A stretch of 64,000 nt of DNA from Torymus aiolomorphi (Eukaryota > Arthropoda > Insecta > Hymenoptera > Torymidae), in assembly GCA_036365515.1 (NCBI GenBank), contig CM070874.1:94533442-94597441 (forward strand), written 5' to 3'. The notes beneath the pieces are model-generated. The model had not been told where the DNA came from. It saw only the letters and a list, made by a program, of their open reading frames with translations, and searched no databases. The first letter of the stretch is position 1, and every line of letters begins with the position of its first letter. The translations under genes were made by a program, and so were the position numbers. Positions 15,340 to 39,644 of this stretch are shown piece after piece.

Positions 15340-16500
15340 AAAAAAAAAAGTTTGTGAGATAATGTCTTAGGAATGTTGTATAGAAAATTTGGAATCGAAA
15401 TACACCATTTTTAGAAAATGTCCGTATGGATGTGTGTGTGTGTGTGTGTATGTATGTCCGTATACTCTGATATCTCATGATCTACTCAACCGATTTTAAC
15501 GAGAGAGTAATCATTTTTTTCAGATTTTGCTTCAACAATTGGGGTCAATATTTTATTTTTGTCAAAATCGATTTTTTTGTTTTTTATCGCCATTTTTAAA
15601 TTTTCAAAATTTTTATTTTCAATTTTTTTTATATTTAGAACAAATATTATTTATATACGATAAATTCTCTGTATGCAGAATAAAATTTTCTACAATTTAA
15701 AAAAAAAAGCCGTTAGCTATATTTCGTCATAAGTTATTCATGAAAACGTCATTTTTAATAAATAGGTTATATTTCAAAATTAAAAAAAGATATTAATATG
15801 AATATTTTTTTGGTTATAAAGAATACTGAGTACTATAACTTACTAAATTTTTAGGTTTTTTTATTCATTATTTTTGGAGAAAAAAATAATTTATAAAAAA
15901 AGTGTTTTTTTTGTCGTTCAATAACTAGAGTAAAATTGGCTTAATCAGTTTGAAATTTTTTTAGTGGTACATTTTGTATCACAATCGATTGAGTTCTTTG
16001 GGCAAAAGGATTGATCCATAAATTTCGGAGATATTTGAGGTTAAAATTTTTTTCACTTTTTTTTAAATCGTAATTTCTCGAGAACGGCTTTATGTATTTG
16101 AATCGGGTGGGCGGCATTCGAAACAGAATTTCAAGACGTATATTTTCTAAAAAAATTATTTGTCTAGCTATTACGGTTCTTTTGTTATTAATAAAAACGT
16201 AAACATTGAAAAATGAAAAAAATGAGTTTGGTATGTCCAACTATTGCGGGAGTAAAAATTGACTTAAGCGCTTCAAAATTCCTCGTAGAGGTGGATTTTG
16301 GATAGTTTTCGGTCGAGTTATTCGGGCAAAATGATTGGTCCTTAAATTTCAAAGATATTTAAAAAAATTTCAAGTTAATATATACCATAAAATTTTCCCA
16401 ATTTTTTTAAATGTATTGAGGATGGCTCTATGTATCTGAATGTGATGGGTAGCATTTGAAAGAGAATTAAAATATTAATATTTTCTAATACTTATAGCAT
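15340..16500. repeat. Non-coding interspersed repeat with a diverged internal duplication
   Basis: AT-rich DNA with no coding frame. About 15920-16150 is similar to 16250-16490, including the paired landmarks CTTTATGTATTTGAAT / CTCTATGTATCTGAAT and GGGCAAAAGGATTG / GGGCAAAATGATTG. A short TGTG tract is at 15433-15449. Confidence 0.6.
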
Positions 16501-16957: not shown

Positions 16958-17671
16958 ATGGAGTGAGTATTTCCGCCGACGAAGAAGAGAATGAAAGTTG
17001 CTTGCCGACCGTCGGATGACGAGCTCTAGAAATTTGACGACGAGAAAATCGACAAGGTGATTATTGAGGATGAGGACAGCGATGAGGATAACGATGATGA
17101 CGACGAGGTTCAGGACAGCATGAAGAACGAGGCTGAGGTTCAAGCTATTGAGTCTACCCTAGCCCAAAATAACTATAACTACGAGGCTCACAAAATGCTT
17201 ATAGAGAAACTGCATTCGATGGCAGAGTTGGAAAGGATTGCCAGGGAGAATATGAGTTCCAAGTATCCACTGACACCAGAATTATGGTTGTCTTGGTTGC
17301 GATATGAAATGAAGATTGTTGTAACACCAGAGCAGAAGATTGCTCTTATGGAACTTTGTCAGTAAGCTGTTCAAGATTACCTCTGTAAGTTAATTAATAT
17401 TTCTTGTCATGAATCCTGCTAATGGTTATAATTTGCAATTATAATTCTTAGTTATCAATTTTATTTGTTGATTATAATGACCACGTTGTTTTTTAATACT
17501 TGTAGCTATCGAGTTATGGTTGGAATATTTACAGTTCATTACAGGACTGAAACAACAGAGAAAATTTGGAATTTATTCGAACGAGCATTAACAGCAGCTG
17601 GACTACATGTTAAAAAAGGATCTTTGATTTGGGATACATACAGGGAATTTGAAAATTTTATTGCTTTATAA
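16958..17671 (+). pseudogene. SART3: SART3 (HAT-repeat splicing factor) 5' fragment, broken
   Basis: SART3 is a nuclear U4/U6 snRNP recycling factor with N-terminal HAT repeats. The fragment has an acidic N-terminus (IIEDEDSDEDNDDDDEVQD), then NYNYEAHKMLIEKLHSM, YPLTPELWLSWLRYEM, IELWLEYLQFITG and FERALTAAGLHVKKGSLIW, all typical of the first HAT repeats. It is disabled: TGA right after the start ATGGAG, TAG near 17028, TAA near 17364, a frameshift in the second exon near 17545-17560, and loss of everything past YREFEN. An intron (about 17384-17506, GTAAGT...TTGTAG) is retained at a coding junction, so this came from genomic DNA, not from a spliced mRNA. Confidence 0.8.
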
Positions 17672-17674
17672 CAG

Positions 17675-18365
17675 TATCCCAGTGGTGGTGCGGAAAGCTG
17701 TTTAAAATGTGGTAACCCTTGGAAAACAATGTACCCTCTAAATACCCATTTTCATGCTTAAAAATGCATAACATTCAAACCTACATATACAAAAAAAATG
17801 AGTATAGAGATCTGGCATCAAGCAATTGGCATCCTTTTTTTTAAAATGTATTGAGGATGGCTCTATGTATGAAAGAGTAAAAATAAAGTAGAACCTTCTT
17901 ATTTTTTTTATATAACTTGATAGGATTTAACTTAACAGAAATATGTTAAATGGGAAAAAGTTTTATGTCAATATTATCGACAACTTTTATATTTAAAATA
18001 TTTGAGGAGTTATAAATAAAATGGGCGATTTTTGGCTATAACTTGATTGGATTTGATTTTACACGAAAATGTTAAATACAAAAGTTGTGGATAATATTAA
18101 AACAAAAAATTTTACTATTTAATATTCTCGTGTAAAATCAACTCCTGACGAGTTGTTAGACTTATAAAAACGATTTTAAGCCGTTTACATCGTATTTTGA
18201 TACGTTGACAGATGAATTTGAAAAGGAAAGTCAAAAGTATAAATAAATAATTAATTATTCTTAAAAAATATTGGTATTATTAATATTTGTAACTAGAATA
18301 TTATTTTTAAATAAAAATATTACGATTTATATTAAAAAAATTTTTTTCAATTTATTTTTCATATA
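17675..18365. other. AT-rich stretch with nested inverted repeats
   Basis: The text at about 17838-17865 (ATGTATTGAGGATGGCTC) repeats that at 16413-16440, so the SART3 fragment sits between direct copies of a dispersed repeat. Inverted pairs occur at 17969-18000 with 18070-18105, and at 18050-18075 with 18117-18143 (GATTTTACACGA / TCGTGTAAAATC). No coding frame. Confidence 0.55.
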
Positions 18366-18370
18366 TATAT

Positions 18371-18630
18371 TTAACTCTTGTTTGTACTAACATAGAAGAA
18401 CTGCATTAATTTTGAACTATATATTTAACTCTTGTTTGTACTGACATAGAAGAATTGCATTAATTTTTAACTATATATTTAACTCTTGTTTGTACTAACA
18501 TAGAAGAACTACATTAACTTTTAACTATATATTTAACTCTTGTTTGTACTAACATAGAAGAACTACATTAACTTTTAACTATATATTTAACTCTTGTTTG
18601 TACTAACATAGAAGAACTGCATTAATTTTT
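18371..18630. repeat. Five 54-bp tandem repeats, antisense to the polymerase ORF
   Basis: Units start TTAACTCTTGTTTGTACT at 18371, 18425, 18479, 18533 and 18587, an exact 54-bp period. The reverse complement of about 45 bases of each unit matches 19386-19430 inside the polymerase N-terminal frame with only two or three differences. The array ends about 235 bases before the TATA box of that gene. See the separate finding. Confidence 0.95.
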
Positions 18631-18866
18631 ATATATACACACAGCGACAGAGCGACAACTTTTCTACCATGAAATCGCACCTTAAAGGTTACTCCTGCGG
18701 TCTATTCGACTATATGTACTTGTACATATATATACGTCTTAGCTATCGATACAATCACTTAGTGAGTGATGGTAAAGTAGTATTCACCCTGACCGCGTAA
18801 ATTTAAATTTCATATAATGAGTAAGAAGGCTGATAAAGTTATCCCCTCCAGTTTATTACAATTCTT

Positions 18867-18902: not shown

Positions 18903-18937
18903 ATTCATTTTAACTTTACCAATTCAAGATAGAAACT

Positions 18938-21900
18938 ATGACTGAAGAAATTATAAGTGAGTGTCTTGAACAAGTGCACCTGTTAAATAAAGGTGTAGAC
19001 TTAGTTTGTGCACAAAACGTGGATATAAATACAATCAACCGATGGAAAAAACATTGTCTTTCATCTAAAAAAAATTTGAAACGTATTCTTAAATATAATA
19101 ATTTAGTAGTTTCACAGAAGCAAAGTATTTTACATGCAATGGGACGACTTATATGCCTTATTATTAAACTAGATACTATATTAAAACGAGGTGCAGGAGT
19201 TGCACTGCAAACAATTAAAAATAGAGTACGTTGGATAGACATTGATAGTGCTTTTGGAAAACATATGCGGACAAGTATCGTTGCAAATATTGCGCACATT
19301 GATGTCCATTCTTTTTTAGATGATGTCAAAATTTTATTTACTCGTTATGTAAAAAAATTATTTAAAGAAAATTATATTGATGCTTTAAAAATTAACGCAG
19401 TTCTTCTATGTAAGTACAAACAAGAGTTAAACAGCAACGGTGAAAAAGAAGAAAAAATTGAAGAAAAGCATTTTAATACAAAAAATGTTGAAATTTTTCT
19501 TTCAACAAATCTTGAGCAATGGTTCAATGAGAATATTAAAACTCCTCTGACATCTGACATTGAAGAATTTCAAGATAGAGATTCAGGTTGGTCTCCGCAC
19601 TCCATACTAAATATTCAGATTAATATAAATAAATATAATCCTATGCGTAGTGGTAGTTCATACATTCCTTTGCCAAAATTTATTCAAAACAAGAAGGCTT
19701 GTGTCAACGTACAAAATAGTGATAATCAGTGTTTTAAGTGGTCTATTTTAGCAGCTTTACATCCAATACCTACAAAAAATAATCCTCACAGATTAATAAA
19801 TTATTTACCACACGCCGAAGAACTAAATATGAAAAATATAGACTTTCCTGTTCCCTTAGGACAAATACAGAAATTTGAGAAACAGAATTCTGAAATATCA
19901 GTTAATGTTTTTGGACTTAATGGTAAAAATATTGTACCATTATACTTAACATCTAGTAAAAAAACTAAACCATGTAAATCTTCTTTTAATTGAAGAAATG
20001 GGTAATGAAAATGAAATGTTTCAAGATACAATATTTCATTACGTCTACATAAAAAACTTGTCCAGACTTGTAGGGAGAAGCCTTTCACATCATAAAGAAA
20101 AATGTTATATTTGTGATAGATGTTTACAATTTTTTAATGATTCAAATAGTCTAGCTAAACATGAAATATACTGTAGTCAACTTAATAACTGTAGAAGTAA
20201 TCTACCTAAAGACGGTAAAAATATCATAGAATTTAAAAATTACAAACATAAAGAAAAAATACCTTTTATAATTTATGCTGATTGTGAATGTTTATTGAAG
20301 TCTGTTATTGAGTGTAAAAATGAAGAAAGTAATACAACTGTTTTTCAAAGACATGAAATATTTAGTATTGGTTATTACTTAAAATGCAGTTATAATGATT
20401 GTCTTTCATATTATAGAAGCTATAGAGGTAAAAATGCAGCTCTTTGGTTCGCTACAGAATTAAAATGTATAGCAAAATTGATTGAAAATATATATTGTAA
20501 TGCAGAACCTATGGAAACGCTAACATTAGAGCAAAATGTTGCATTTTTTCAAGCTGAAACATGTCATATATGTTGTAAGCCATTCAATAATACTAGCATT
20601 AAAGTTCATGATCATTCACACCTTGATAAAACATATAGAGGACCAGCTCATGCATCTTGTAATCTTAATTATAAAGATTCACGAATTATATCTGTAGTAT
20701 TTCATAATCTTAGTGGGTATGATGCTCATTTTATTATACAAGATGTTTCTAATTTTTTTTAATTTTTTCATTTTCCCGGAAAAGTTGATTTGCTGCCTTT
20801 AAACAAGGAAAGATATATTGCTTTTACAAAACATATAGAAAATAGTAATATAAAATTTCGATTTATTGATTCTTTTAAATTTATAGCTTCTTCGTTAGAT
20901 AAATTAGCATCTTATCTCGATGAATACAATATTATATACTCTCAATTTCCAGGCTTGGATGAAAAAAAGTTAAATTGCTTACAAGAAAAGGTATTTTACC
21001 ATATGAATATATTGATTCTTGGGAAAAATTAAATGCAACAAAATTACCAGCAAAGGATAAATTTTATAGTACACTTAATGATTCAAACATATCAGATAAA
21101 GATTATAATCATGCACAAAAAATCTGGAATGTTTTTAATATAAAGAGTCTTGGTGAATATTCTGATCTGTACATGAAAACAGATATTTTACTGTTGGCTG
21201 ATGTGTTTGAAAATTTTAGACATCAATGTATGAAATCATATGGACTTGATCCAGCTCATTATTATACTACACCTGGTTTTTCTTGGGATGCAATGCTTAA
21301 ATGCACAGGAGTCAAATTAAGTCTTCTAACAGACATAGACATGCTTTTATTTATCGAATGTGGTATTAGAGGCAGTTTAAGCCAATGTTCAAATCGTTAC
21401 GCTGTTGCTAATAATAAATACATGAAAGATTATAAAGAAAATGAAGAGGATGTGTATTTAATGTATTTTGATGCTAATAATTTATATGGCTGGGCAATGA
21501 CACAAGCTCTTCCTTATGACTCATTTGAGTGGGTTGAGGATTACGAAAATTTTAATTACAATGTTGATGATAATGCTTCGATTGGTTATATTTTAGAAGT
21601 TGATTTAGACTATCCTTCAGAAATTCATGATGATCACAATGATTTGCCATTTTGTCCAGAGCATATAAAACCGCCTGGATCAAAACAAACAAAGCTTTGC
21701 GCTACATTGATGAACAAACGTAACTACGTTATTCATTATCGTTATCTAAAACAAGCAATTGCACATGGACTTCAACTTGTTAAGATTCATAAAGTTTTAA
21801 AATTCAAACAATCTCCATGGCTCAAATCTTATATTGATTTGAATAGTTCTATGAGAGCAAATGCTAAAAATGAATTTGAAAAAAATCTCTTCAAATTGAT

Positions 21901-22671
21901 GAATAATGCTGTTTATGGAAAAACTATGGAAAATGTACGTAAACGCGTTGATGGGAAACTTTTAACACAATGGGAAGGAAGATATGGCTTAGAAGCTTAT
22001 ATTTCAAAACCAAATTTTCATAACAGTGCTATATTTAATGAAAATTTAGTAGCTGTTGAACTAAGAAAGGTAGAAATTTTAATGGATAAACCAATATATG
22101 TGGGACTCACCGTTCTGGATGTATCCAAGATACTCATGTACAGTTTTCATTATGATTACATGCATAAAATGTATAATAATAATTGTAAGCTTCTTTATAC
22201 TGATACTGATAGTTTAATTTATTCTATAAAATGTCATGATATTTATAATGATATTAAATTGAATATTCATTATTTTGATACTTCAGAATATTTAATGAAC
22301 AATGAATTTGGTATTCCACAAGTAAATAAAAAAATTGTTGGACTAATGAAAGACGAGTGTAATGGAAAAATACTCACAGAATTCGTAGGATTAAGAAGTA
22401 AAATGTACAGTACACGTGTAAATGGAGAAGATGCTACAAAAAAAATCAAAGGGATTAAAACTGCTGTTATGAAAACTATAACTTTTGATGATTACGTTAA
22501 TTGTTTGAAAGATTTATTGATTCAAAAGCGAAAACAGTGTATGATACGATCAAAGTTACATAAAGTTGAAACAATAAGACAAGAAAAGATTGCACTAAGT
22601 CCTTATGATGATAAAAGATGCTTACAAGAAGGTAGCACAGAGACACTTGCTTGGGGACATTATAATATGTA
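18938..22671 (+). pseudogene. Protein-primed DNA polymerase B of the Polinton
   Basis: This enzyme replicates the linear element from a protein primer. The frame is broken into pieces (18938-19993, 19998-20762, 20775-21032, 20975-22672) by frameshifts near 19980 and 20990 and a stop/shift in a T-run near 20755. The first piece has SGSSYIPLPKFIQNKKAC and a CX2C...H zinc pattern follows near 20107-20170. Exonuclease boxes are IIYADCECLL (about 20270) and FHNLSGYDAHF (about 20700). An HNH-like insertion CHICCKPF...VHDHSH...HASCN lies at 20562-20663. Polymerase motif A is DANNLYGWAM (about 21470), B is KLMNNAVYGKTMEN (about 21893) and C is YTDTDS (22196-22213). All catalytic residues are present; only the frame is damaged. 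The frame ends LAWGHYNM at a TAA that overlaps a possible splice donor (22669). Confidence 0.93.
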
Positions 22672-22738
22672 AATTATTTTTTAAATTTAAATCAAACATA
22701 AATAAATTATAAATTAAAATAGTAAACATTTATTTCAG

Positions 22739-22945
22739 ATGTAAGCAGGTAAAGCGCGTTCGTTTTCAAGAAAAGATATCTATTCATGTAATGCATACTT
22801 GGCTATATGCATATCAAAACGCTCGACGAGGTGAATGGGAAATGTTTGCACGTGATCATGAACGGTTTCGATTAAGAATTAAAAAACTTAGTAAAGTACT
22901 TGATCCAATAATTTTAACAAAATGTGAGGAATTTAAAAAAATAAA
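22739..22945 (+). CDS. GADD34/PPP1R15-like PP1-binding domain in the Polinton
   Basis: The conserved stretch contains KRVRF, a fit to the RVxF motif that docks on protein phosphatase 1, then QEKISIHVMHTW, ARRGEWEMFARDHERF and RIKKL. This layout (KVRF, EK-V-VH, a tryptophan, AARRG-WE-FARD--RF--RI) is that of the C-terminal domain of cellular GADD34/PPP1R15 and related viral proteins, which bring PP1 to eIF2-alpha and restore translation under stress. There is no obvious long N-terminal region. The first ATG in frame is at 22791, after the RVRF motif, so translation from it would omit the docking site. A TTTCAG at 22733-22738 suggests an acceptor. A 70-bp GTAAAT...TTCAG intron from 22669 would join this frame in phase to the polymerase end. 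The frame runs on to 23180 through AT-rich codons that overlap the convergent integrase and are probably not meaningful. The family match is strong; the expression route is inference. Confidence 0.7.
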
Positions 22946-23052
22946 TAAATACATTTTTATATTGATATCATTTATTGTTATCTTAAAATATATATTACAT
23001 GTAATTTTTTATAATTTTAATAAAAATATATTACAAATTTCAGATTTTTCTA

Positions 23053-23983
23053 TTAATCTTTTATATAATTTTTATATATCCAACTATTATGAGAATTATC
23101 AAAACCTAACCATTTTACATAGATGTTATTACCACGTTTTTTCAATATTTTTTCTACTAGATAAATATCAGGATATTTAGTCTTCAGAAGTTCTTCAGCA
23201 TAAAATCCTCCAGCAATTGTTTTGTTCTGGTAATCCTTTAAGTGGTAAGTCACAGGAACTGTATTAATAACTTTGCAAACAGTAAAAATTTCAGTTGACC
23301 AATTTGGTGTGTAACCTTTCTCAAAAATTTGTTTCCTTTTACTTACTCTGACTTTGTCATCGATTTTAAATTTTACTTTATTAATTATTCTTTTTTGAGA
23401 TTTAGTAACACGACTAAGAATTTGTTGCACCTTTGATGGAGTTACATCTTTTGGTTTCATTCCAATGGTTCGATGATATGTGCTATATCACAATATATTG
23501 TGATACTAAATCAGGTAAAATATCTATCCATGTATAATTACCACGCAAACTAAATTTTTTCCACATTTTATTTTTTAAAGTACGATTAAATCGTTCACAT
23601 ATTGATGCTTTTAGATTACTATATGTTGAATACAAATTCACATTGTAACGTTGCATGAGATCTTGAAAGTTTTTGTTATAAAATTCTTTACCACGATCAG
23701 TCTGTAGATTTTTTGGTATGCGACCTTCTTGAAATATTGATTCCATACTTTTACTAACATCTTTACCACTTTTTTGTTTTATTGGAATAGCCCAAGCAAA
23801 CTTTGAAAGGGTATCTAATCCCGTAAGCAAATATTTATAACCTTTATTTTTATACGCATATGGAATCATTTCTACTAAATCAGCTTGCCATGTTTCATCT
23901 ATATCACGCAAATCAAACTTTCGACGCTGATAATTACGTCGAGCTGGTTTATGAAGTTCTTCTACTAGCTGTTTATGTTCCAT
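23053..23983 (-). pseudogene. Polinton integrase with C-terminal chromodomain
   Basis: The retroviral-type integrase inserts the element into the chromosome. The N-terminal frame (23983-23483) has the catalytic triad in TWQADLVEM, LQTDRGKEFYN and KASICERFNRTLK. The second frame (23460-23053) carries the SH3-like region (KFKIDDKVRVSKRK, FTVCKVINTVPVTYHLKD) and a chromodomain, YLVEKILKKRGNNIYVKWLG. The frames are separated by a short frameshift region at 23461-23482. All three acidic residues are present. The N-terminal zinc-finger part is short or lost upstream of 23983. Its 3' end overlaps the tail of the convergent plus-strand frame. Confidence 0.92.
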
Positions 23984-23995
23984 TCTTCTTCTTCT

Positions 23996-24170
23996 TTAAA
24001 ATTTTTTATATCCTTTCTTTTCAGGTTGAGAATAAGTATTAGTAGAATATTTTTTCCAATCAAAGCTAGATTTTTCAGTATATTTTGTACATTCAAAATT
24101 ATGTGTCTCCTTTTTTTCGTTCAGCCTCCTTAAAAGGAGTATATTTTATATCTTTGTATTTCTACTCCAT
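23996..24170 (-). pseudogene. Small broken ORF between integrase and fibre-like gene
   Basis: On the minus strand ATG at 24170 is followed at once by TAG, then YKDIKYTPFKEAERKK. After a frame change, FECTKYTEKSSFDWKKY continues to a stop at 23996. The two halves read as ordinary protein text, which suggests a small gene of about 55 codons with one stop and one frameshift. No family recognised. It could be the remains of the integrase N-terminal region. Confidence 0.35.
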
Positions 24171-24227
24171 TATACTTAATGCACATTTAAAGAGTGTGTG
24201 AAAGTATTTATAGTTTTGCAGCGTTGC

Positions 24228-24587
24228 TTATGGAGAGAATGAATAATTTTCATTTATCAACTTTTTAATCTCTTGAATATTTATGTCATGTTTGTTTAGT
24301 TTTTCATCAATTTCATCTCGGTGATTTTCAACGATTACATCTAAATCTTGAATATCAGATTTTATTCTTTTTATAATATCCAATACGCTATCAATTTCAG
24401 CTCTGACTATTCGACGTAAAGTTATTAAATTTACAGCATCAGTCAATTCATTAGGAGCTGCAACATTACACAGTCTTTTATTATCAATGTCATACTGACC
24501 ATTATCTGTGAATTTATATCCAATACCAGCAGGACCTGGAATACCTTGAATTTCATTTAAATGACGTCCAAACACATCTACACTCAT
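24228..24587 (-). CDS. Fibre-like structural protein of the Polinton
   Basis: I chose ATG 24587 (MSVDVFGRHLNEIQG); an in-frame GTG lies 30 bases upstream. A short collagen-like IPGPAGIG is followed by YKFTDNGQYDIDNKRLCNVA and NELTDAVNL, a pattern of a small trimerising beta unit joined to a helical stalk. The second half (RIVRAEIDSVLDIIKRIKSD and on) is a long amphipathic helix, probably coiled coil. The Gly-Pro start, the repeat-like ...G-YD--NKRL-NV-.P... segment and the coiled coil suggest a fibre or attachment protein on the particle surface; this is inference. The reading frame is intact at 119 codons and starts just after the upstream gene ends. Confidence 0.55.
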   Translation of the reverse strand: MSVDVFGRHLNEIQGIPGPAGIGYKFTDNGQYDIDNKRLCNVAAPNELTDAVNLITLRRIVRAEIDSVLDIIKRIKSDIQDLDVIVENHRDEIDEKLNKHDINIQEIKKLINENYSFSP

Positions 24588-24594
24588 CTTAAAT

Positions 24595-25608
24595 TTAATG
24601 TATAATATTAGCTTCACGTAGCTCCTCTATGATCGAGTGAATTTCGTTTATATGATTCTGATTACCAGCTGATTTTTCAGCTAATAATAATTTTAATCGT
24701 TCTACTAATTCATTAGGATCATCCCAGTATATATAGTCGATATTGGTCATTCTTCGTGCTATCTTAAATGGTGGGGGTAAAGTTAATCCTTTACCACTTG
24801 TAGAGGAACGTTTAGACGGTTTTATTAATTTAGAAATAAAATTCTTATATTTCAATGTATTTTTCTCACGAACAGATTCTTCTGATTTATAATATTTTCT
24901 GTAAGCATTAGTCATATTTAAGATTTCTCCATAGTTACTCATATCTTTATTTGAAATAAGGCTTTCATTTGGTTCTTTTTTAAATATTAGTTCTACAAGA
25001 CCCTGACTTTTCACATACTTTCTATCATCTATAATTATATAATTATCATTAAAATATATAGAAGCATTACCAATCATATAACCTCCACGCAACTTAAGTA
25101 CATCATTTGTAGTATCTAGTGATTCAGTTTTATTGTTATCCAACATTTGCAAATATTCAGTAATATCATTCCTTGTTGATAATTCAGTTTTACCTTTATT
25201 TGAAATTTGTAAATATTCATTAATATTATCACTTTTTAATGTAGTGTTATTATCATTATCATCTTCAATACTTTCACTTTCACTTCTTACTGATTCAAAT
25301 GAAGTATCATACTCATTTTCTATCTCTTGTTTTTCATCTTTCTCTTCTTTTTTAACTTTCTCTTCCTTTTTTATACTATTTCGCTTATTTTTTATTGCTA
25401 ATTCATTTTGATTTTTTATTTCTTGATTAGTTGTTTCAGAAACGTTCACTAATTTTTCTAATGGTTGAACGATTGGCTTAAATGTTTCATTCATAACTTT
25501 TTCAATGTCTAATTTACTTGATTTCAACAGTTTATATTTTTGTTTGATAGCATCACGTGCTTTTTCCATTTGTTGTAAAATATTGATCTCGTCGGTAAAG
25601 TTAGCCAT
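24595..25608 (-). CDS. Polinton protein of unknown function, 337 residues
   Basis: Starts at ATG 25608 (MANFTDEINILQQMEKARD). The first 60 residues are helical. The middle is acidic and low complexity (KKEEKVKKEEKDEKQE and serine/aspartate runs), with two related segments, NDNNTTLKSDNINEYLQISNK and the later ITEYLQMLDNNKTE. The C-terminal 70 residues look like a folded helical domain: YIYWDDPNELVERLKLLLA, then EIHSIIEELREANII. I believe this C-terminal domain recurs in insect Polinton proteins, but the function is not known. The frame is intact and its stop overlaps the neighbourhood of the fibre-like start, as in a compact viral gene block. Confidence 0.65.
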   Translation of the reverse strand: MANFTDEINILQQMEKARDAIKQKYKLLKSSKLDIEKVMNETFKPIVQPLEKLVNVSETTNQEIKNQNELAIKNKRNSIKKEEKVKKEEKDEKQEIENEYDTSFESVRSESESIEDDNDNNTTLKSDNINEYLQISNKGKTELSTRNDITEYLQMLDNNKTESLDTTNDVLKLRGGYMIGNASIYFNDNYIIIDDRKYVKSQGLVELIFKKEPNESLISNKDMSNYGEILNMTNAYRKYYKSEESVREKNTLKYKNFISKLIKPSKRSSTSGKGLTLPPPFKIARRMTNIDYIYWDDPNELVERLKLLLAEKSAGNQNHINEIHSIIEELREANIIH

Positions 25609-25639
25609 CTTATTAGTTCAATGTCTAATGACATACTAT

Positions 25640-26354
25640 TTAATTAGTTTCCAAACGACTTATATTTATAAAAAAACAATCAAATCCTTTTCTATATCTA
25701 CCATTATTAATTTCACGCTCTTTGTCGATTACGAGAAAAGTATGTTTATCATTCCAACAAGATGAACATAAATTTTTAAAAGACTGATATGTCATATCAG
25801 TGGTAACATGATCATTGTAAATGTGCTTTAAGTTTATATCATCTTGACGAAACACAATTAAAAAATTAATATTGTCACGTACTAAATGCTTAGGAACTTG
25901 TGCATAAGATTGACAGAGATAGAAACAGTCAACATTTTTATGTCTACCCATACAATAAAACGCTTTAACATTATCTTGTTTTTCACATGCTATATCATCG
26001 AATATCATAATAGAATTCGGAAGAGCTTCGTCAGGTGAAATAACTGTATCATGCTCATGAAAAGATAAATATTCAATTCCTTCGATTGGCTCGATGAGTT
26101 GTGCCAGAAATTTATATTTTGGTTGATTAAGAGATTTTGAATACAAATAAATATTTTCCAACTTTAAACCATGTGGATGAGTTAAAAGTGCTAGTAAAGT
26201 ATTTGTTTTACCACAATTTGAAGGGCCTGTGATGCATGCTCTAATGTTATTTGGAAGTAGTTCTCCGTGTCGTTTATATTTTTCTCTATGTGGCTCAGTA
26301 AAAGTATCAAATTTATCACCGGTAATTCAATAGTTTGTTTTTTTTTAAATCCAT
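25640..26354 (-). pseudogene. Genome-packaging ATPase (FtsK/HerA type)
   Basis: This ATPase pumps the genome into the capsid. The main frame has the Walker A loop TGPSNCGKTNTLLALL near 26200 (upstream of the first ATG in frame at 26161), Walker B IMIFDDIACE near 26005 and a sensor-like FYLCQSYAQVPKHLVRD. The plausible start MDLKKNK at 26354 lies in another frame, and a run of nine A on this strand lies between them, so a homopolymer indel has cut the N-terminus. The length of about 235 codons is usual for Polinton ATPases. It starts about 95 bases from the divergent PLA2 gene. Confidence 0.88.
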
Positions 26355-26391
26355 TGTGCTTGAAGTTATAAACGAAACTGTGACAGTAAGC

Positions 26392-26428
26392 TATAAAAGT
26401 GTGTATTTATAACCATTAAGTCAGTCAG
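26392..26428 (+). promoter_or_regulatory. Core promoter of the PLA2 gene
   Basis: TATAAAAG at 26392-26399, then TCAGTCAG at 26421-26428, about 29 bases downstream, as in the polymerase promoter. The ATG is at 26449. It lies in the 94-bp gap between the divergent ATPase and PLA2 genes. Confidence 0.65.
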
Positions 26429-26448
26429 CATAAAACTTTTAAAGAGTT

Positions 26449-27225
26449 ATGATCATTCATAAAGGTCGAGGATTAGTGAACAAATTCATAAATAATTTAC
26501 CATTCGAACTTCATTTACCTGGTTACTAGTATTGCGGACCAGGAACGAAATTACAACAAAGACTAAGACGTGGCGGCCCCGGTATAAATCCGTTAGACGC
26601 TGCTTGCAAAGAACACGATATTGCTTATTCGAAAAACCGTGAAAACGTTGAAGCGAGAAACGTTGCAGATAAAATTTTAGCTGAAAGAGCTTGGCAACGT
26701 GTCTTAGCGAAAGACGCAAATCTAAGTGAAAAAGCAGCCGCTTACACTGTTGCGAACATCATGAAAGCTAAGTCTAAGCTTGGAATGGGGATTGGTAATA
26801 GGAACAAAAATAAGAAGAAAGCAATGCTTACATTGAAAAAACTAATAAAATCAATGTCAAAGACTATCAAACCAAGTAATGATTCACGAATTGCTATTCA
26901 ATCAGCACTCAGAACTGCACGTAATAGTATAAAGAAGATTGGTGGTAAAAAGTATATTAATATTCCGCGAATATTGCTTGTTCCAAAAGTAGGTGGCTTT
27001 CTTCCTGCACTTATTCCAATATTTGCAGGTTTAAGTGCAGTAGGTTCGTTAGCAGGTGGCGCTGCTGGTATAGCTCAAGCTATTAATAAAACAAAAAATG
27101 CTAAACAAAAATTGGAGGAAATGAAACGACATAATGAAAAAATAGAAGCTTTGGCTCTTGGTAAAGGATTATACTTGAAACCTTATCAAAAAGGATATGG
27201 GATTTGCTTGAAGAAAAAAAAGTAA
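26449..27225 (+). pseudogene. PLA2-domain minor virion protein of the Polinton
   Basis: Starts MIIHKGRGLVNKF at 26449. After LPFELHLPGY there is an in-frame TAG at 26527-26529, then YCGPGTKLQQRLRRG and PLDAACKEHDIAYSK. The calcium-loop YCGPG and the catalytic HD in an AACKEHDIAY context define the phospholipase A2 fold seen in parvovirus capsid proteins and in adintovirus-like elements, where it breaches endosomal membranes. The rest is basic (MLTLKKLIKSMSKTIK), with a hydrophobic Gly/Ala-rich segment FAGLSAVGSLAGGAAGIAQA that may be membrane-active, and a lysine-rich end. The single stop would remove all of the PLA2 domain. Confidence 0.85.
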
Positions 27226-27269
27226 TAAAAAAAAAAAAGTTCGTCACGAGAGAAAAAAAAACATTATTA

Positions 27270-27675
27270 AAGTAATACTTCCGAAACGTGCTTTAACAAA
27301 TTTAGATTTAAGAAAATATGCTCATCACTTGAAAATATTTAATTTTAGAGGAGTATTTATGAGGAATGCATTACCATCAAATGGACCACTGTATAATGAG
27401 TCAGCTATCATTAATCTTGATGATAGTACAGGTCCCGGTACACATTGGGTAGCTTATAAAAAAATGGTAAAAATGTTATCTATTTTGATAGTTTTGGTGA
27501 TTTACAGCCTCCAATGGATCTTATGCAATATTGGAATGTTGAAAACATTAAATATAATTATCAGCGGTATCAAACATTTAATTCATTTATATGTGGTCAT
27601 CTTTGTTTAAAATTTTTATGTAATTTACTTGATCATTCTGACAATTATAATCTATATAAGAAGATTCCCCGCTAA
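27270..27675 (+). pseudogene. Adenain-like cysteine protease of the Polinton
   Basis: The protease matures capsid proteins. The first frame has FRGVFMRNALP and GPGTHWVAYKK, holding the catalytic His. After a frameshift in the A-rich stretch near 27462-27470 a second frame has VIYFDSFGDLQPP and FNSFICGHLCLKFL, holding the Asp region and the catalytic Cys, and ends at TAA 27673-27675. The order His, Asp, Cys is that of adenovirus-type and ULP1-like proteases. The start is unclear: no ATG in the first frame precedes 27359. All catalytic residues survive. Confidence 0.82.
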
Positions 27676-27683
27676 ATCAGATT
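27653..27683 (+). promoter_or_regulatory. Core promoter of the minor capsid gene
   Basis: TATATAAG at 27653-27660 and AATCAGATTC at 27676-27685, about 25 bases apart; the ATG is at 27706. The TATA box lies inside the 3' end of the protease gene. Confidence 0.5.
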
Positions 27684-27705
27684 CACTTTAACTAAATTAT
27701 TCAAG

Positions 27706-28395
27706 ATGATAGAATCATTGACACTTACTTTATCTGGCTCTTCGTCAGTGCTAGAAACACATTATTTTCCACCGATAGAGCTTGATCCTGAGAAAATGTA
27801 TGTTCTTGGATTAATTGAATTATTAACATTTAATTCTATTCCTAATGTAGACTATGGGCAAAACAAATTTTATGTTGGAGAAGAAGTTATTGAAATACCT
27901 ACAGGTAGCTATGAAATTCGTGATATAGAAAGTTTTCTACAGAAGACTCTGGAGTCCAAAGAAATTAAAATAAGTATTGCACCTAATAATAACACTCTAC
28001 GCAGTGAAATTTCTTGCAGTTCACAAATCGATTTTCAACCATACGATTCTATTGGTAGACTGTTAGGTTTCACTTAACGTTTGTTGGAACCCTATATAAA
28101 TCACATCTCTGACATGCCCGTCTCCATTTTACAGATAAGCGCTCTACGAGTAGAATGTAATATTTCGTCTGGAGCTTATATCAATCAGAATAAAGTTCAT
28201 ACGATTCACGAATTTTTCCCAGCCGTGCCACCAGGATTTAAAATTATTGAAATTCCTAAGCAAATCATATATCTCCCAGTTAATGTTAAAATTATTGATC
28301 ATTTACAATTACGTATTGTAGATCAGAACGGAAATTTGGTTAACCTACGAGGTGAAATTATTACAATTCGTTTACATTTGAAGAAAGCTGTATAA
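27706..28395 (+). pseudogene. Minor (penton-type) capsid protein of the Polinton
   Basis: The frame starts MIESLTLTLSGSSSVLETH and continues with YVLGLIELLTFNSIPN and EIPTGSYEIRDIESFL. It meets one in-frame TAA at 28075-28077, then goes on in the same frame with LLEPYINHISDMPVSILQI and HTIHEFFPAVPPGFKIIEIP to the stop at 28393-28395. The beta-rich composition and the place between protease and major capsid fit the single jelly-roll penton protein of Polintons. One stop codon alone disables it. Confidence 0.8.
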
Positions 28396-28583
28396 TGGGT
28401 ATTGTTTTTAAGGCAACAGCAGCAGAAAACTATATTAAGACATCAACATGCCATCCAAAAATCAGTCAACGACAAGCAGTCAAGCAACTAACACTACAAA
28501 ACATAAAGTTTCTAAAAAGTCTTGGACTAAAACTAAAAATAAACGAAGAGAATCGCAAGAGGAAACGTTCTTACGCCAATTAA
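28395..28583 (+). CDS. Small basic protein preceding the major capsid gene
   Basis: The ATG overlaps the stop of the minor capsid gene. The 62 residues (MGIVFKATAAENYIKTS, LTLQNIKFLKSLGLKLK, NRKRKRSYAN) are basic at the end. Its place, one base overlap, and the NIKFLKSLGLK segment suggest a genuine small Polinton gene. Function unknown; perhaps a DNA-binding or assembly peptide. Confidence 0.5.
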   Translation: MGIVFKATAAENYIKTSTCHPKISQRQAVKQLTLQNIKFLKSLGLKLKINEENRKRKRSYAN

Positions 28584-28625
28584 CTTGTATATTTATATGC
28601 TGTTATCGTTGCATCTTTGAAAATA

Positions 28626-29873
28626 ATGGAGGAAATTCTTAATGTACAGACACCTATTATTTTCGATGAATCTATATCACACTATGAGATTCACGCTCAT
28701 CAACCATACACTTCACTAGCATTTAATAATAGTGATGAAATTCGTATATCTATCCAACATCAAGACTTATGTTTATTACCATCACGAAGTTCTCTACATA
28801 TATGTGGAAGTCTTACACTTGCAAATGGACAACCAGTAAAAAAGACTCAATTTGTAAGCAATGCAATATGTCATTTATTTGAAGAAATTCGCTATGAGAT
28901 AAATGCTATAGAAATCGATAAGTGTAAAAATGTAGGTTTAACTACTCTTATGAAAGGTTATGCTTCATTCAATTCAAATCAAAGTAAAATTCTTGAAAAT
29001 TCTGGATGGATCGATGTTGAAGAAACTAACAAAATTGTTGATGATAATGGAAACTTTGATATATCTATACCACTTTCAATGATTTTAGGATTTGCTGAAG
29101 ATTATCGTAAAATTGTTGTAAACGTAAAGCATGAACTTGTACTGACAAGATCTAGAAATGACATAAACGCTGTATATCAAGAAGGAGTCGAACGGGATGA
29201 TAGAACCGAATATGAGGATTTTAAAATTAATTTAAGTAGAATAGAATGGTTAATGCCTTATGGAATACTGTCAGATAAACATAAGATACATCTTTATAAC
29301 TACATTAAAAAAGATATAGCAATATCAATGAGTTTTCGTTCGTGGGAATTATATGAATACCCTATGCTTCCCGCAACATCACGACATGTATGGACAGTCA
29401 AAACATCAAATCAATTGGAAAAACCACGTTTTGTTATTCTTGCATTCCAAACAAATAGAAAAGGACAACGAACTAAAAATACAAGTCAGTTTGATCATTG
29501 TAATGTATCAAATGTAAAACTTTTTCTAAATTCTCAATACTACCCATATGGAAATCTAAACCTAGACATAAATCAAAATCAGTATGCAATATTATATGAC
29601 ATGTATGTAAATTTTCAAAAACAATATTATCACGGTGTAAGTGTTTCAACAGATCCATTTCTCAGTAAAAAGGATTTCAAGAAATATACTCCATTAATAA
29701 TTATTGATTGTTCAAAACAAAATGAATCATTGAAGCAAGCTGCTGTAGATGTTCGTCTAGAGTTTGAGACCAAGGAGAATATACCTGAAGGAACAACAGC
29801 TTATTGTCTAATTTTACATGATCGCATCATTAAATATAATCCGATTAGTGATATTAAAAAAATTGTTTCATAA
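28626..29873 (+). CDS. Major capsid protein (double jelly-roll type) of the Polinton
   Basis: The capsid hexon-like protein builds the particle. I choose ATG 28626 (MEEILNVQTPIIFDESISH); 415 residues without a break. Features are ISHYEIHAHQPYTSLAF, LCLLPSRSSLHICGSLTL, MKGYASFNSNQ, a central WLMPYGILSDKHKIHLYNYI and the late SQYYPYGNLNLDINQN, FQKQYYHG, PLIIIDCSKQ and YCLILHDRIIKYNP. This matches the layout of insect Polinton major capsids. AATAAA near 29914 follows. It is the only large structural gene here without any stop or shift. Confidence 0.88.
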   Translation: MEEILNVQTPIIFDESISHYEIHAHQPYTSLAFNNSDEIRISIQHQDLCLLPSRSSLHICGSLTLANGQPVKKTQFVSNAICHLFEEIRYEINAIEIDKCKNVGLTTLMKGYASFNSNQSKILENSGWIDVEETNKIVDDNGNFDISIPLSMILGFAEDYRKIVVNVKHELVLTRSRNDINAVYQEGVERDDRTEYEDFKINLSRIEWLMPYGILSDKHKIHLYNYIKKDIAISMSFRSWELYEYPMLPATSRHVWTVKTSNQLEKPRFVILAFQTNRKGQRTKNTSQFDHCNVSNVKLFLNSQYYPYGNLNLDINQNQYAILYDMYVNFQKQYYHGVSVSTDPFLSKKDFKKYTPLIIIDCSKQNESLKQAAVDVRLEFETKENIPEGTTAYCLILHDRIIKYNPISDIKKIVS

Positions 29874-29879
29874 CTTTCT

Positions 29880-30260
29880 TTTATTTGTAATTATTTTATT
29901 ATTATATTTTTTAATAAATATTTATCATAAGGTTTATTATATGTGTGTTTTTATTTATAGTTATCTCACCCTCAAACATAATATTTAAATCTTATTTTCA
30001 TTATTTCATTCTATTTGTTGATTACAATGCATTTGCGCCTTTGCTTTAAAAAATCTTAAGAAAGTTTCTTAAATCTCTTGTAATCTCTTATATCAAAGTA
30101 ATTTATTAACAACATAATTAAAATTTTTAATTCATTCTTCATTTTCCAAATATAGCTATAAGTAAAATAAATATGTGTCATCTAACATTGCACTGCAAAA
30201 AAAGATAATCAGGACACATGTAACATCCCGATGCTCGCTGGTAAATCAATCTAATCGATT
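29880..30260. other. AT-rich right flank of the Polinton
   Basis: A poly(A) signal is at about 29914. I looked for an inverted copy of the left flank and did not find one. No coding frame. Confidence 0.4.
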
Positions 30261-30479: not shown

Positions 30480-31860
30480 AGGATAAAGTGCCAGAAGCCC
30501 CATAGCCCATACTACTGTAATGGACCGATTTTTTTGGGCAACGAACTCGATCTGAAGATATATAAAAGCTACATCTGTGCCAAATTTCAGAACGATTGGA
30601 TAATTTTTGCTCTAGTTATCGTGCGAAAACGAAAACGCAAATTTTTTCTAAAATAATGTTTTTCTAAAAAACAAATGAAGATAATCTCTTGAAATTTTAA
30701 CCACATATAGTCTTCAATTAGTGTAATAACTGGTTATTTATTTCAAGTCGATAAATAAATTATTTTTTGAGAAATTAATTTATGAAATATAAAAAAGTTT
30801 TCCTTAATAACAATTGACAGAGTGAAGATATTTTAAATTTTAAAAAAGGAAAATATAGATAATTTAAATACCTTTCAAGAAAAGTTTATTATATTATGTA
30901 ATAATGACTGTAAGATATGAAAAAATAAAAAAAACTAAAAATTCAAAATCGTTTTTTGGTTATAAAACAAAAGAAAATCAATAAAAACTCAAATCCATCA
31001 GGGTACCTTTCTTTTCCCGCGAGACAAAGAGAATAAGCTTCGCTCGTCCGAAAAACGTCACATAAACTAAATCATCACCTTCCGCGCCAATGTCAAAATG
31101 TACTATTAGTAAATGCTCCTACTTCAACCCGATTTTCAAACATCACAACGAAAAAAATTATTTTCGATTTTTTAAAAAATTTTCTTTATTGTTTTAACCA
31201 ACTTAATATTATCCAATCGGGCCGAAAAAATATATGTGAGTAGAAATTTAAAATACTTTTAGTAAATGCTCCTACTTCAAACTGATTTCCAAACACCGCG
31301 ACGAAAAAAAAATTATTTTCGATTTTTCGATACCTTTCTTTATTTTTTGTTAACCAGTTTGATATTATCCGAGTAATTCTAAAGTTGTACTTGCACAACT
31401 TTTGCATATACTTTATATACCTACAAAATTTTAGCACGATATCTTTTTTCGTTCGCGAATTATGGGACGAACAAATTTATTACAGACACACATACACACA
31501 CATACATGCATACATACACGCCTACATACATACATACATTTTTGGTCAATAATAAACAAAATAACATTTTTGTATACTTTCAGTACATTTATAAATGAAA
31601 TAAATAATCAATATAACGACTTTAATGATTATATATTTAAAAATTAGGTGTCCCTCTTTAAGACAAGTTATTTGTGTAGTTGCCTATACAGGGACTCTAT
31701 TTCCATGGTATCTTTTGCCTTAATTTTGCCATAAATATTTGTAGTGCCGTATCAAAAACCTTATTTTTTTCTTAATGTGTGTGGCCAAGTATTCATAGAA
31801 TGTTGATAACATACTATAATCGTATATTACATATTCAGTAATATAACCTTAAATTGCCCC
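30480..31860. other. Non-coding repeat DNA with a tandem duplication
   Basis: AGTAAATGCTCCTACTTCAA occurs near 31107 and again near 31259, followed by similar text for about 110 bases. ACACACATACATGC-type simple repeats lie at 31485-31540. The frames are short and AT-rich, without a product I recognise. Confidence 0.5.
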
Positions 31861-35489: not shown

Positions 35490-37555
35490 ATGTCTATTAA
35501 ACTAGCACCGCCACTAATAACCGCAACTATGAAAACTCTACCATAATTTATTGCTAATTTGTTGCTAATTTGTTACGCAAACCCCGAATTTGTTGCTCCA
35601 GTCGTTTCCGAGATATCCTGGTAGTGCTACCTTAAGACTTAACTCAGCACAGCCACAGCTGTATTTTTTGATCGAATAAAGATATTTCAATCATTAAAGC
35701 GGGATAATTTGTTGCTAATTTGTTGCTTTGAGATTGGGTTAGATCCAAAATCGATAGTCCAACGGGAATGTAGGAAATCGACTTTCGAGCGCTCTAAATA
35801 GTGTTTTATTTAGTAAAACGGTAAGTAGCAAATTCAAAACTGTGGCAACCGTTGAGGCTAATTTTGCTAAATTATAATTCCCGCAAAATTATAATTTGTT
35901 GCTTCAAGATAAGCCAGGTTTGGGGTCCAAAAATTGATCGAAAACGCAAGAAAACGTGTTTTGGACGCTGTAAATGGTGTTTTACTTCGTAAAACGCTAA
36001 GCAACAAATTCATAACTGTGCAGAATGTTGTCTTTAACATGTTGCTAAGTTTTTACAGTATTCCTGAATTTGTTGCTTCACAATAGGCTAGATCCCGGAG
36101 TCGAAAGTCGATCGAAAACGCAAAAAGAAAACTGTTTTGGACGCTGTAATGGGGTTTTATTCAGTAAATCGGTGAGTAACAAATTTATAACTGTGCGAAA
36201 TGTTGTTATTGTGAGCAATGATTTTGTTAATATGTTGATAAGTTCTTAGGCTTTTTTAAATCTCGAATAATTAAACAAACAACTATTGGATATTTTGTTA
36301 CTAATTTGTTGTCAATTTGTTAGGCATACGGTTACCAAATCGTGGTCGCTCGCATTATTTCCGAAAAAAAGAGATAGCTACACCGGGTTTCGCCTAGACT
36401 TCGTCGGTAAGTTTCCGCTAATTTTTTACGCTATACCATCGTTTTGGTCACTCAAGCCGATTTCTAGACACAATCGCGAATGCATCTGAAAATTCGAGCC
36501 GGAAATTTCACTACCATATTTACCCAGCCATTAACGTTAGAAATAGCAGGTTTCACCTGCCAGGGCGAAACCCGATGTAGCTATCTCTATTCGCTGAGGA
36601 GATACAAACGTCGATAATCTGGCTTAACCCATTAAGTCCTGAATGGACAAATTTTCACTAAAGTTTTCAACGCTTATATTTTATGTGAAAATGAATTGTA
36701 AAAAGTATATGAATAAGCGTATTCGATGTAAAATTTGATGATCTTTCAGAATCTTTGGTTAGATTTTTCAAAAAATTTAACTGTCGAACACTACATGATT
36801 TTTTAAAAAAAAACATGATTTAAAAAAAAAAAAAAAATTTCATTTCGATTTTTCAAATGGAATGCATTTAAGATTTAATTATCAAAATGCAAAAAACGTG
36901 GCCTCGAGACCTAAACTTGAAAATCTAACGATTTAGGTTTTGAAAAAAAATTTTAAACCACACAACATGGCGGCTGAAACGCAGAAAAATCATAAAAATC
37001 TTCTGGAATTATTTACTCGAAAAAGATGGACTTTAGAGAAAAATTTCACTGAAGAAAAAGTTCTTAGAATTGATTAAAGAACACGCTGGAATTTTTTCAG
37101 AAACATTAGAAGCGTTTTTGAAATTTGAAAATTTTGAAAAATTCTGAAATTTGCCAAAAACTTTTGGAAAAATTCCGGCATGTTCTTTGATCAATTCTAA
37201 GAATATTTTCTTCAGTAACATTTTTTTCTAAAGTCGATCATTTTTGAGTAAATAATTCCGAAAATTTTCAACAATTAATATGTGATTTTTCTATTTGGTT
37301 GCAGATAATTTGTTGGTAAGAAAGTTAAATCTAGAATAAATTGATATACGAACATTCTTTAGCCGTCAAAAATTTTTTGCCGTTGCCCAGTTCTTACCAC
37401 GTGGAGGTAAATGTATGTGAAGAACCTTTTTTATTTTTTTTTTATTTTTTTATTTTTTTTTATTTTTTTTTTATTTTTTTGTTTATTTTAATTTTTTGTT
37501 TTATTTTCTTATTGATATGACATAAGTTCTACGTTTTTTAATGAACTGAGCTAAA

Positions 37556-39194
37556 ACAAGTATTACAAAAATAAGCATCGCAATTCTTAGACATTTTGTT
37601 GATTCTTTTTGAGCATTTTTGGAAATTCTTGCAATTTTTTTTTTCTCGCATCTTATTAATTCATGAGACTCTTTCTTTCCTTTTCTACTCTTGGCGAGAT
37701 AAAATTCAGCAATGGCTAAAACCATCTCTTTTGATCCAATTTTTTTGCCACTATTCGATAAATTACAAATTACAAGTGCATTGGTTATTGATGATTGGAT
37801 GAGACGAAGAAACATTGGCCAAGTCCATCTTTTGGCTCTTATACATGGCATCAAATTACTACAATGTCCATCATGTAGATCGACACCGCCCATGTACTTA
37901 TTGTAAAGTGTAAATGCTCTGGGAAAAGGTAAATCATTTTTACTTTTCGATTCTTTTGAATACCTTTTTGCAGTTGATAATGGTTCAACGCCTGCTGCGG
38001 TTGAAAGTAGAGAAACAGGCTTTGAATCCATCACAGTGATGAAATTCAAACCGCTTTTTTCTTCATGTTTGACAGAAATTGTACCTCTGACTGCTTTTTT
38101 ATCCAATTCATTGTCAATATTTACTCTGTTTCTTCTTACGGTGCCCGTAGCTTTCAAGCCAATCGATCGCAAATGAATCAGTAAGTCAGGGTTACAAAAA
38201 AAATTATCAAAATATAAATGATATTGAGCAATTTTCTTTGGGGAAAGAGTAGTAAGCAGTTTTTGAACCATCATCAAAACTACACGACTTCCTAAGGCAC
38301 ATTTAGATAATTTTACTTTTTTATCAGCTGAATAAATGTTCGAACCTTTGCCGCAATAAATATCACTGCAGAACAGATACCCTTCGCAATTACAAAGTCC
38401 CCACATTTTTATTCCAAATCGCACAGGCTTGTCTTTCAGAAACTGGAGCAAGATGGTTCGTCCATGAAATTTCACCATCATTTCATCGACAGATAAAGCA
38501 GTAGAGAAGAACCCAAATTGCAAGGCATTTTTATTAAAAATTTCCAGAAATTTCCATACTCTCCAAGCTCTGTCATCGACATTTTTATCTTCAGGTTTGG
38601 AAAGTTTTATTTTAGCTTTTATCTTGAGAAATTTGTCGCGACTCATTGCCTTAGCTATTGCAGGGCATTCTAGCAATAAGTTGGAAGACCAATAGTCTTT
38701 CTGGGATTTCCTTTGATTAATAATTGATGTAATAATCACCCCCAAAAAACATCAAAATCATTCATCGTCAAGTTATAACCATTCATTTGAGTACTTTCAA
38801 TAATATAATTCTTCAACTCAGTAGAAAAAAAAAGTTCAAATAACTCTACGCATGAAGAATCACAAATAAACTTTTTTGTTTTTTCAGACAACAAATTATT
38901 ATTTTCGAAGTAATTATTGTATAATTTTTCTCCATTCACCCATTTATAAACATAGTCTGGCTCTAATTTTGATTGATTCTCTTCATAATTGTTTAAAACC
39001 TGTGAATAACTAACTGATGGAATATCATTTTGTGAGTTCTGACAATCTTCTGATTCAGAATCAGAATCGGAATAGTCAGAATCATCATCCTGAGGAATAA
39101 CTAATGCACCAGAATTTCCATTTTCTTGCTCTTCAATTTCTATATTTTGTATGTAATTAGATTTTTTACGACGCTTTGTTAACGAACCCAACAT
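37556..39194 (-). pseudogene. piggyBac transposase
   Basis: The DDE/D transposase cuts and pastes the element at TTAA. The N-terminal frame (39194-38736) starts MLGSLTKRRKKSN, has an acidic serine-rich stretch and ends with NDFDVFWG. The main frame (to 37501) continues with GVIITSIINQRKSQKDYW. In its numbering the three catalytic aspartates are D87 (SVDEMMVKFHGR), D180 (YHLYFDNFF) and D289 (NKYMGGVDLHD). The frames shift at about 38740. A second shift near 37590 hides the C-terminal cysteine-rich domain, which reads CDAYFCNTCF in another frame ending about 37556. Catalytic residues are intact. Confidence 0.92.
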
Positions 39195-39199
39195 TTTTT

Positions 39200-39644
39200 A
39201 TGTAATGTGACAATGTATTTTCGTAAGAAATTTCGCTGTACATACAATAGTACCGAAAATATACTCAATGGCAGCTTATAACTTCGATTTTTTCAGCGAA
39301 TAAAAGTGAAAAAAAATAGATAAAGAAATATTATAATTTTAAAGAAAAATTTATAATTGATAAAAGAATGATTTTATTATGTCATCGTCAAGTGAATTGT
39401 GTCATGTAATATATCGAACTATTTTCGTGCGAAATTTCGCTGTACATGCAATAGTACCGAAAAATGCTCGATAGCAGCTTATAATTTCGATTTTTTAGCC
39501 AATACAAGTGAACAAAAATACATAAAGAAATATTATAATATGAAAAGAAAATTCATATGTTGATAAAAAAATAATTTTATTATTTCATAATCAAGTGAAT
39601 TATATAGTGAACCTATTACTCGAAAGTGAACTAAAATATAGATT
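39200..39644. repeat. Tandem duplication upstream of the piggyBac transposase
   Basis: ATTTCGCTGTACATACAATAG near 39230 recurs as ATTTCGCTGTACATGCAATAG near 39435, with about 200 bases of similar text each time. This is the promoter side of the transposase gene. Confidence 0.8.

Follow-up and report, generated by a model that had tools for sequence, protein, structure and literature searches.

A PPP1R15 core domain within a Polinton/adintovirus-type element of Torymus aiolomorphi

A segment of 68 codons at 22740-22943 on the + strand corresponds to the core of PPP1R15, the GADD34/CReP family, and lies between the polymerase and the integrase of an apparently decayed Polinton/adintovirus-type element in the window, i.e. 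the whole stretch of 64,000 nucleotides of T. aiolomorphi DNA that was analyzed. We consider it probable that this core was captured from a host by a hymenopteran Polinton/adintovirus lineage and was kept as an accessory gene, the product of which would serve as an eIF2-alpha phosphatase adaptor. Virus-borne PPP1R15 proteins are already known, and no Polinton case was found reported in the literature searched. Such a captured core is the kind of gene that large DNA viruses deploy against host translation shut-off.

Results and Discussion

Identification of the PPP1R15 core

The translation of the 68 codons (P0001) was searched with phmmer against PDB chains, which led to matches with human PPP1R15A (E=3.4e-9 and 1.2e-7), PPP1R15B (E=0.0084 and 0.012) and, as a weak direct match, African swine fever virus (ASFV) DP71L (E=0.011). 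The best alignment, to PPP1R15A, covers 54 residues without a gap, and identity with the PPP1R15A core fragment is 41%. An HMM of our own, built from 12 outside PPP1R15-like ORFs with the copies of the element left out, gave 38.0 bits for the domain ORF; the runner-up among the 1099 ORFs of the window obtained 5.1 bits, and the highest score in 30 Markov-simulated windows was 11.0 bits. Of the Pfam families, PF10488 (PP1c_bdg) was the sole one with a match to P0001 at E<=1 (E=0.0011). Its score of 19.1 bits is below the gathering score of 26.1, which is a curator's cut-off and not a biological feature, and the same is true of the whole ORF; the domain therefore falls outside Pfam membership by Pfam's own rule. 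The two relatives of the element described below, P0123 and P0124, scored 19.4 and 19.5 bits, so the gathering score is reached by 0/3 copies of the element and by 4/4 outside controls (31.0 to 121.8 bits). Judged by pairwise and profile similarity, the window domain is a PPP1R15 homologue.

A previous reading of this DNA from its letters (hereafter the sequence-only reading) had noticed KRVRF, ISIHVMHTW and ARRGEWEMFARDHERF between polymerase and integrase, and all three were found in one frame within 22740-22943 of the + strand. The GADD34/PPP1R15 core identity that it proposed is borne out by the PDB match and by our own HMM; of the profile comparisons with the GADD34 family, the one with our own HMM was positive, and the one with PF10488 gave a match below the gathering score. 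Its boundaries required correction, since the frame starting at 22739 contains 10 stops and the domain frame really starts at 22740, and no in-frame stop is present at the proposed end, 22945, the frame being open to 23180.

The Pfam score under the gathering value would agree with a chance resemblance, or with convergence on a PP1-binding motif. This explanation is extremely improbable in view of an E value of 3.4e-9 over 54 gap-free residues, and it was rejected on the 38.0 bits of the domain as compared with at most 11.0 bits in the 30 simulated windows. No PHROGs family matched the PPP1R15 domain, and no relative was recovered from the viral contigs scanned with the domain or from the prokaryotic genome contigs scanned with the domain alignment. 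A protein search using the 155-residue ORF as query, restricted to the domain, gave one candidate and none at E<=1.

Retention of PP1 and actin contact residues

The PP1-docking motif R-V-R-F is encoded at 22755-22766 (+), with V at 22758 and F at 22764, and aligns to KVRF of PPP1R15A. It is followed at 22824-22880 (+) by a stretch containing R29 (22824), W33 (22836), F43 (22866) and I47 (22878), the counterparts of R658, W662, F672 and I676 of PPP1R15B. Passages of a study of the PPP1R15 complex assign PP1- or actin-related roles in PPP1R15B to V641 and F643 (RVxF), R658 (Arg pocket), W662, F672 and I676 (PMC4394352). All six of the contact residues named in these passages are retained in the window domain, as V7, F9, R29, W33, F43 and I47. 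When the columns invariant in the 12 outside rows (at least 11 of them with a letter) were considered, 11/16 were matched by the window domain, and the five mismatches correspond to V to I, P to E, G to D and two R to K changes. The spacing from RVxF to the Arg site equals that of PPP1R15A and exceeds that of PPP1R15B by five residues. With cellular PPP1R15A/GADD34 and PPP1R15B/CReP the domain thus shares R-V-x-F, the Arg of the Arg pocket, G-x-W-E, A-R-D, R-F and R-I; it differs from them in that only the core is visible, by E in place of the P of GPWE, which is invariant in the outside rows, by the lack of an ATG before the motif and by its Polinton setting.

The element carrying the domain

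The gene set used to recognize Polintons and adintoviruses, namely PolB, a retrovirus-type integrase, a packaging ATPase and a double jelly-roll capsid protein, is entirely present around the domain. The family B DNA polymerase (18914-22672, +) consists of four ORF pieces (18914-19993, 19950-20762, 20763-21032 and 20963-22672) and was identified from sequence motifs and a single weak Pfam match: it contains DANNLYGWAM, KLMNNAVYGK and YTDTDS, which we take to be family B polymerase motifs, and one piece matched PF03175 below the cut-off (E=0.0081). The largest piece had no Pfam, PHROG or PDB match, and PHROGs returned none for the two polymerase pieces compared with it. An exact match to a DNA pattern for the DTDS motif occurs at 22193-22209, and the 3 matches with at most 2 mismatches are close to the chance mean of 2.08, so the pattern adds little to the polymerase identity. 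Part of the 19950-20762 piece resembles recombination endonuclease VII (PF02945, E=0.0023, below cut-off). The integrase core and a chromodomain-like tail are encoded on the opposite strand at 23053-23995 (-) in two pieces, 23483-23995 and 23053-23487 (PF00665, E=9.5e-14; PF00385, E=0.0089, below cut-off). Further along are a packaging ATPase of Pox_A32 type (25640-26326, -; PF04665, E=8.1e-9), a phospholipase A2-like protein (26530-27225, +; PF08398, E=4.8e-8) and the double jelly-roll major capsid protein (28584-29873, +; PF21738, E=2.5e-113). This gene set bears out the view of the sequence-only reading that the domain sits between the polB and integrase of a Polinton.

The window copy of the element looks decayed, because stops or changes of frame interrupt both the polymerase and the integrase. 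No pair of terminal inverted repeats spanning the element was found at a length of at least 40 bases. The best inverted match between its two sides (15864-15958 and 30582-30679) extends over 98 columns at 71% (E=1.2e-6) and is probably more like a dispersed repeat, the ends of the element having probably decayed.

At E<=1e-5, 2375 relatives of the capsid protein were recorded. Among the best 120 of these 2375, the organism-named ones are 59-76% identical to the capsid protein, the best named being the Megastigmus wasp adintovirus hexon (76%); the organisms named are Megastigmus, Nasonia, Venturia, Neodiprion, Diprion, Trichogramma, Athalia, Diachasma, Microplitis, Leptopilina and Aphidius, all of which we take to be Hymenoptera. 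Since the named capsid relatives among those listed are hymenopteran, the element is placed by capsid similarity with the hymenopteran Polintons/adintoviruses. These, including Megastigmus wasp adintovirus and the elements of Nasonia, Venturia and others, share the usual gene set with the window element but differ from it in that no PPP1R15 domain was found reported for them in the literature searched. Viral contigs scanned with the capsid protein and with one polymerase piece yielded no relative.

Other copies of the domain

To look for other copies, P0001 and two 22-residue PPP1R15 pieces were used as query, and the protein search with these three short rows gave 15 candidates, 14 of them proteins with E<=1. 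Two of these 14 are close relatives of the window domain: P0123 (71 residues, on a contig of 21,020 bp) is 96% identical to P0001 over 75% of the query, and P0124 (57 residues, on a contig of 19,315 bp) is 96% identical over 74%. The remaining 12/14, of which one is named, are ORFs of PPP1R15A/B-like type. P0002, the nearest capsid relative (98%), occurs on two contigs, the longest measuring 21,020 bp, and this common length suggests that P0123 and P0002 share a contig. Comparison over 50 core residues shows 2 differences in each case, whether P0123 or P0124 is set against the window or the two against each other; P0123 and P0124 are therefore two distinct sequences, which may come from other loci of the window's genome, from a related species or from alleles. 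The predicted proteins of both start at the ATG downstream of RVRF, so that the motif was not seen in them.

As an alternative to capture, the sequence-only reading had considered a chance host fragment. This is not favoured, since two further contigs encode the domain at 96% identity, and these relatives support a domain that belongs to the element and is not an isolated host fragment. It is also very improbable that the element disrupted the host's own PPP1R15 gene and that the segment belongs to that gene. A host-type domain preceded by an acceptor-like site would fit such an origin, but the domain is flanked within the element by polymerase and integrase, it occurs on two other contigs, one apparently together with a capsid gene, and its GC3, given below, is unlike that of the one host exon checked. 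The host gene proper was rejected on account of this recurrence.

Base composition and the open frame after the core

The GC contents at codon positions 1, 2 and 3 are 0.49/0.31/0.18 for the domain, 0.43/0.29/0.17 for the capsid gene and 0.22/0.10/0.14 for the stretch after the domain. The GC3 of the domain (12/68) is close to that of the capsid ORF (73/429, p=0.86), with 109/569 for the largest polymerase piece, and differs from that of the one host exon checked, at 17030-17362 (58/111, p=3.7e-6). The simplest reading of the composition, as GC3 is element-like and the six contact residues are retained, is a long residence of the domain in the element with these residues kept.

The whole stop-to-stop ORF around the domain extends from 22713 to 23180 (+), its part after 22943 being AT-rich and not coding-like by codon position. 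This part comprises 78 open codons, a run seen in 0.165% of Markov sequences, and overlaps in part the integrase on the opposite strand; in the same simulations, chance openness was 3.95% for its first 36 codons, before the integrase overlap, and 0.475% for the 68 codons of the domain itself. The tails beyond the core differ among the window copy, P0123 and P0124. A membrane anchor following the domain was rejected on this difference and on the finding of an equally hydrophobic stretch in 8.7% of composition-matched simulations, although the improbable length of the open run counts against this rejection.

A host PPP1R15 exon could also have been picked up by one Polinton and multiplied along with it as a passenger, never being expressed or selected there, which we hold to be rather unlikely. 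It would agree with the lack of an own start codon before RVRF, with the decay of the window copy and with the close relatedness of the three copies, owing to which their persistence proves little. The core varies among the copies no less than the capsid protein does: its 2/50 differences per copy are, on tiny numbers, in proportion no fewer than the 7/414 of the capsid against P0002, which argues against strong constraint on the core. On the other side, the core is open in 3/3 copies seen, though the tail right after it differs, and the element-like GC3 and the six contact residues suggest the long residence mentioned above.

Expression and splicing

The first in-frame ATG (22791) comes after RVRF, as stated by the sequence-only reading, and no in-frame ATG precedes the motif; a functional product would therefore need an upstream exon or a non-ATG start. 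Candidate splice sites on the + strand of 18914-29900 were ranked using simple hand-set weight matrices. The candidate 3' splice site TTTATTTCAG (22729-22738, +) ranks 37/538 among AG sites and lies 5 codons upstream of RVRF. The 5' splice site proposed by the sequence-only reading, GTAAAT (22669-22674, +), overlaps the polB stop codon and is weak, ranking 144/519 among GT sites, so that the acceptor is the better half of the proposed intron.

Splicing from 22669 to 22739 would place the PP1 adaptor, always or alternatively, on the C-terminus of the polymerase. The 70-base interval GTAAAT...TTTCAG (22669-22738) that had been put forward is indeed present and ends in a fair acceptor, and by arithmetic its removal joins the domain in frame to the polymerase and takes out the polymerase stop codon. 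Its splicing is poorly supported, however, as the donor TAT/GTAAAT is without G at -1 and +5 and has the low rank given above; besides, the known mechanism needs no polymerase tether. We thus regard such a fusion as improbable, whether constitutive or, as a doubtful variant in which the domain would be a ready-made host exon with its acceptor, produced by alternative splicing at the polymerase stop to give a polymerase with a C-terminal PP1/eIF2-alpha adaptor. If it were true, replication and relief of translation arrest would be coupled in one protein.

For the captured accessory gene that we prefer, a genomic host exon with its own acceptor is an attractive origin, because the mammalian PPP1R15 core is described as encoded by a separate exon in passages of PMC4394352, and because in 8/12 outside ORFs a Q directly precedes the V of the motif in the open frame. 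We read this Q-V junction as what is expected of an ORF crossing an intron via CAG into the exon. By analogy, the candidate acceptor before RVRF may be the acceptor of the captured host exon.

At the start of the domain, CAG/GTAAAG (22746-22754) is the third-best donor-like site of 519 on the + strand of the element.

Proposed function and relation to known systems

We propose that a hymenopteran Polinton/adintovirus captured the core of a host PPP1R15, quite possibly as a single genomic exon with its splice acceptor, and that the core would have been retained between the polymerase and integrase genes, which converge on this gap. The product of a working copy would use R-V-R-F and the Arg pocket to dock on PP1, and W33 and residues beyond to engage G-actin; PP1 would then be directed to phosphorylated eIF2-alpha, and translation could be kept running during replication of the element. 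Insects have PERK and GCN2 and are not known to have PKR. Countering of eIF2-alpha phosphorylation by the element would be consistent with our findings. According to PMC4394352, fragments of the C-terminal core are enough to dampen the stress response of cells, and the complex acts with PP1 and G-actin.

ASFV DP71L, of which the PDB chain has 71 residues, is a short virus-borne protein with a weak match to the window domain, but it belongs to a different virus and its spacer from RVxF to the Arg site is shorter than that of the window domain. It recruits PP1 to eIF2-alpha, V16 and F18 being needed for PP1 binding, according to PMC5346070.

A PPP1R15 core in a DNA virus, as in the window element, is also known from coGV-gp036 and from HSV-1 P36313, the latter presumably ICP34.5; these were likened to it by description only, and they are not Polintons. 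The Figure 1 legend of PMC4394352 lists both among the PPP1R15 proteins of DNA viruses, coGV-gp036 (Q1A4R0) being that of an insect virus.

No paper with both polinton and PPP1R15 was found in the open-access literature searched, and none of the literature matches listed joins a Polinton or adintovirus with GADD34, ICP34.5, PPP1R15, eIF2-alpha or PP1. The adintovirus paper PMC11071296 holds no phosphatase, PP1 or eIF2 term, and the adintovirus paper PMC8363768 no phosphatase term.

Animal Polintons are suspected to be viruses, largely from their capsid genes. Should the domain be expressed and selected, it would be evidence that these elements encounter an antiviral stress response in insects and act against it, and would make this testable in wasps.

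Neighbouring features of the window

Just upstream of polB, at 18364-18631, we noticed five 54-bp tandem repeats, and in 5/5 units 46-47 bases match the reverse complement of polB codons at 19385-19431 with 91-96% identity. Such an antisense array beside polB could give rise to double-stranded RNA. Taken by itself, the array shows no better folding than shuffled sequences, 187/200 of which fold at least as well. Near the left side of the element, the host exon at 17030-17362 gave a weak Suf match (E=0.0017, below cut-off) and looks to us like SART3. At 36623-40314, a DDE_Tnp_1_7 transposase (37504-38751, -; E=5.3e-57), presumably of piggyBac type, lies between inverted repeats of about 670 bases that are 97% alike.
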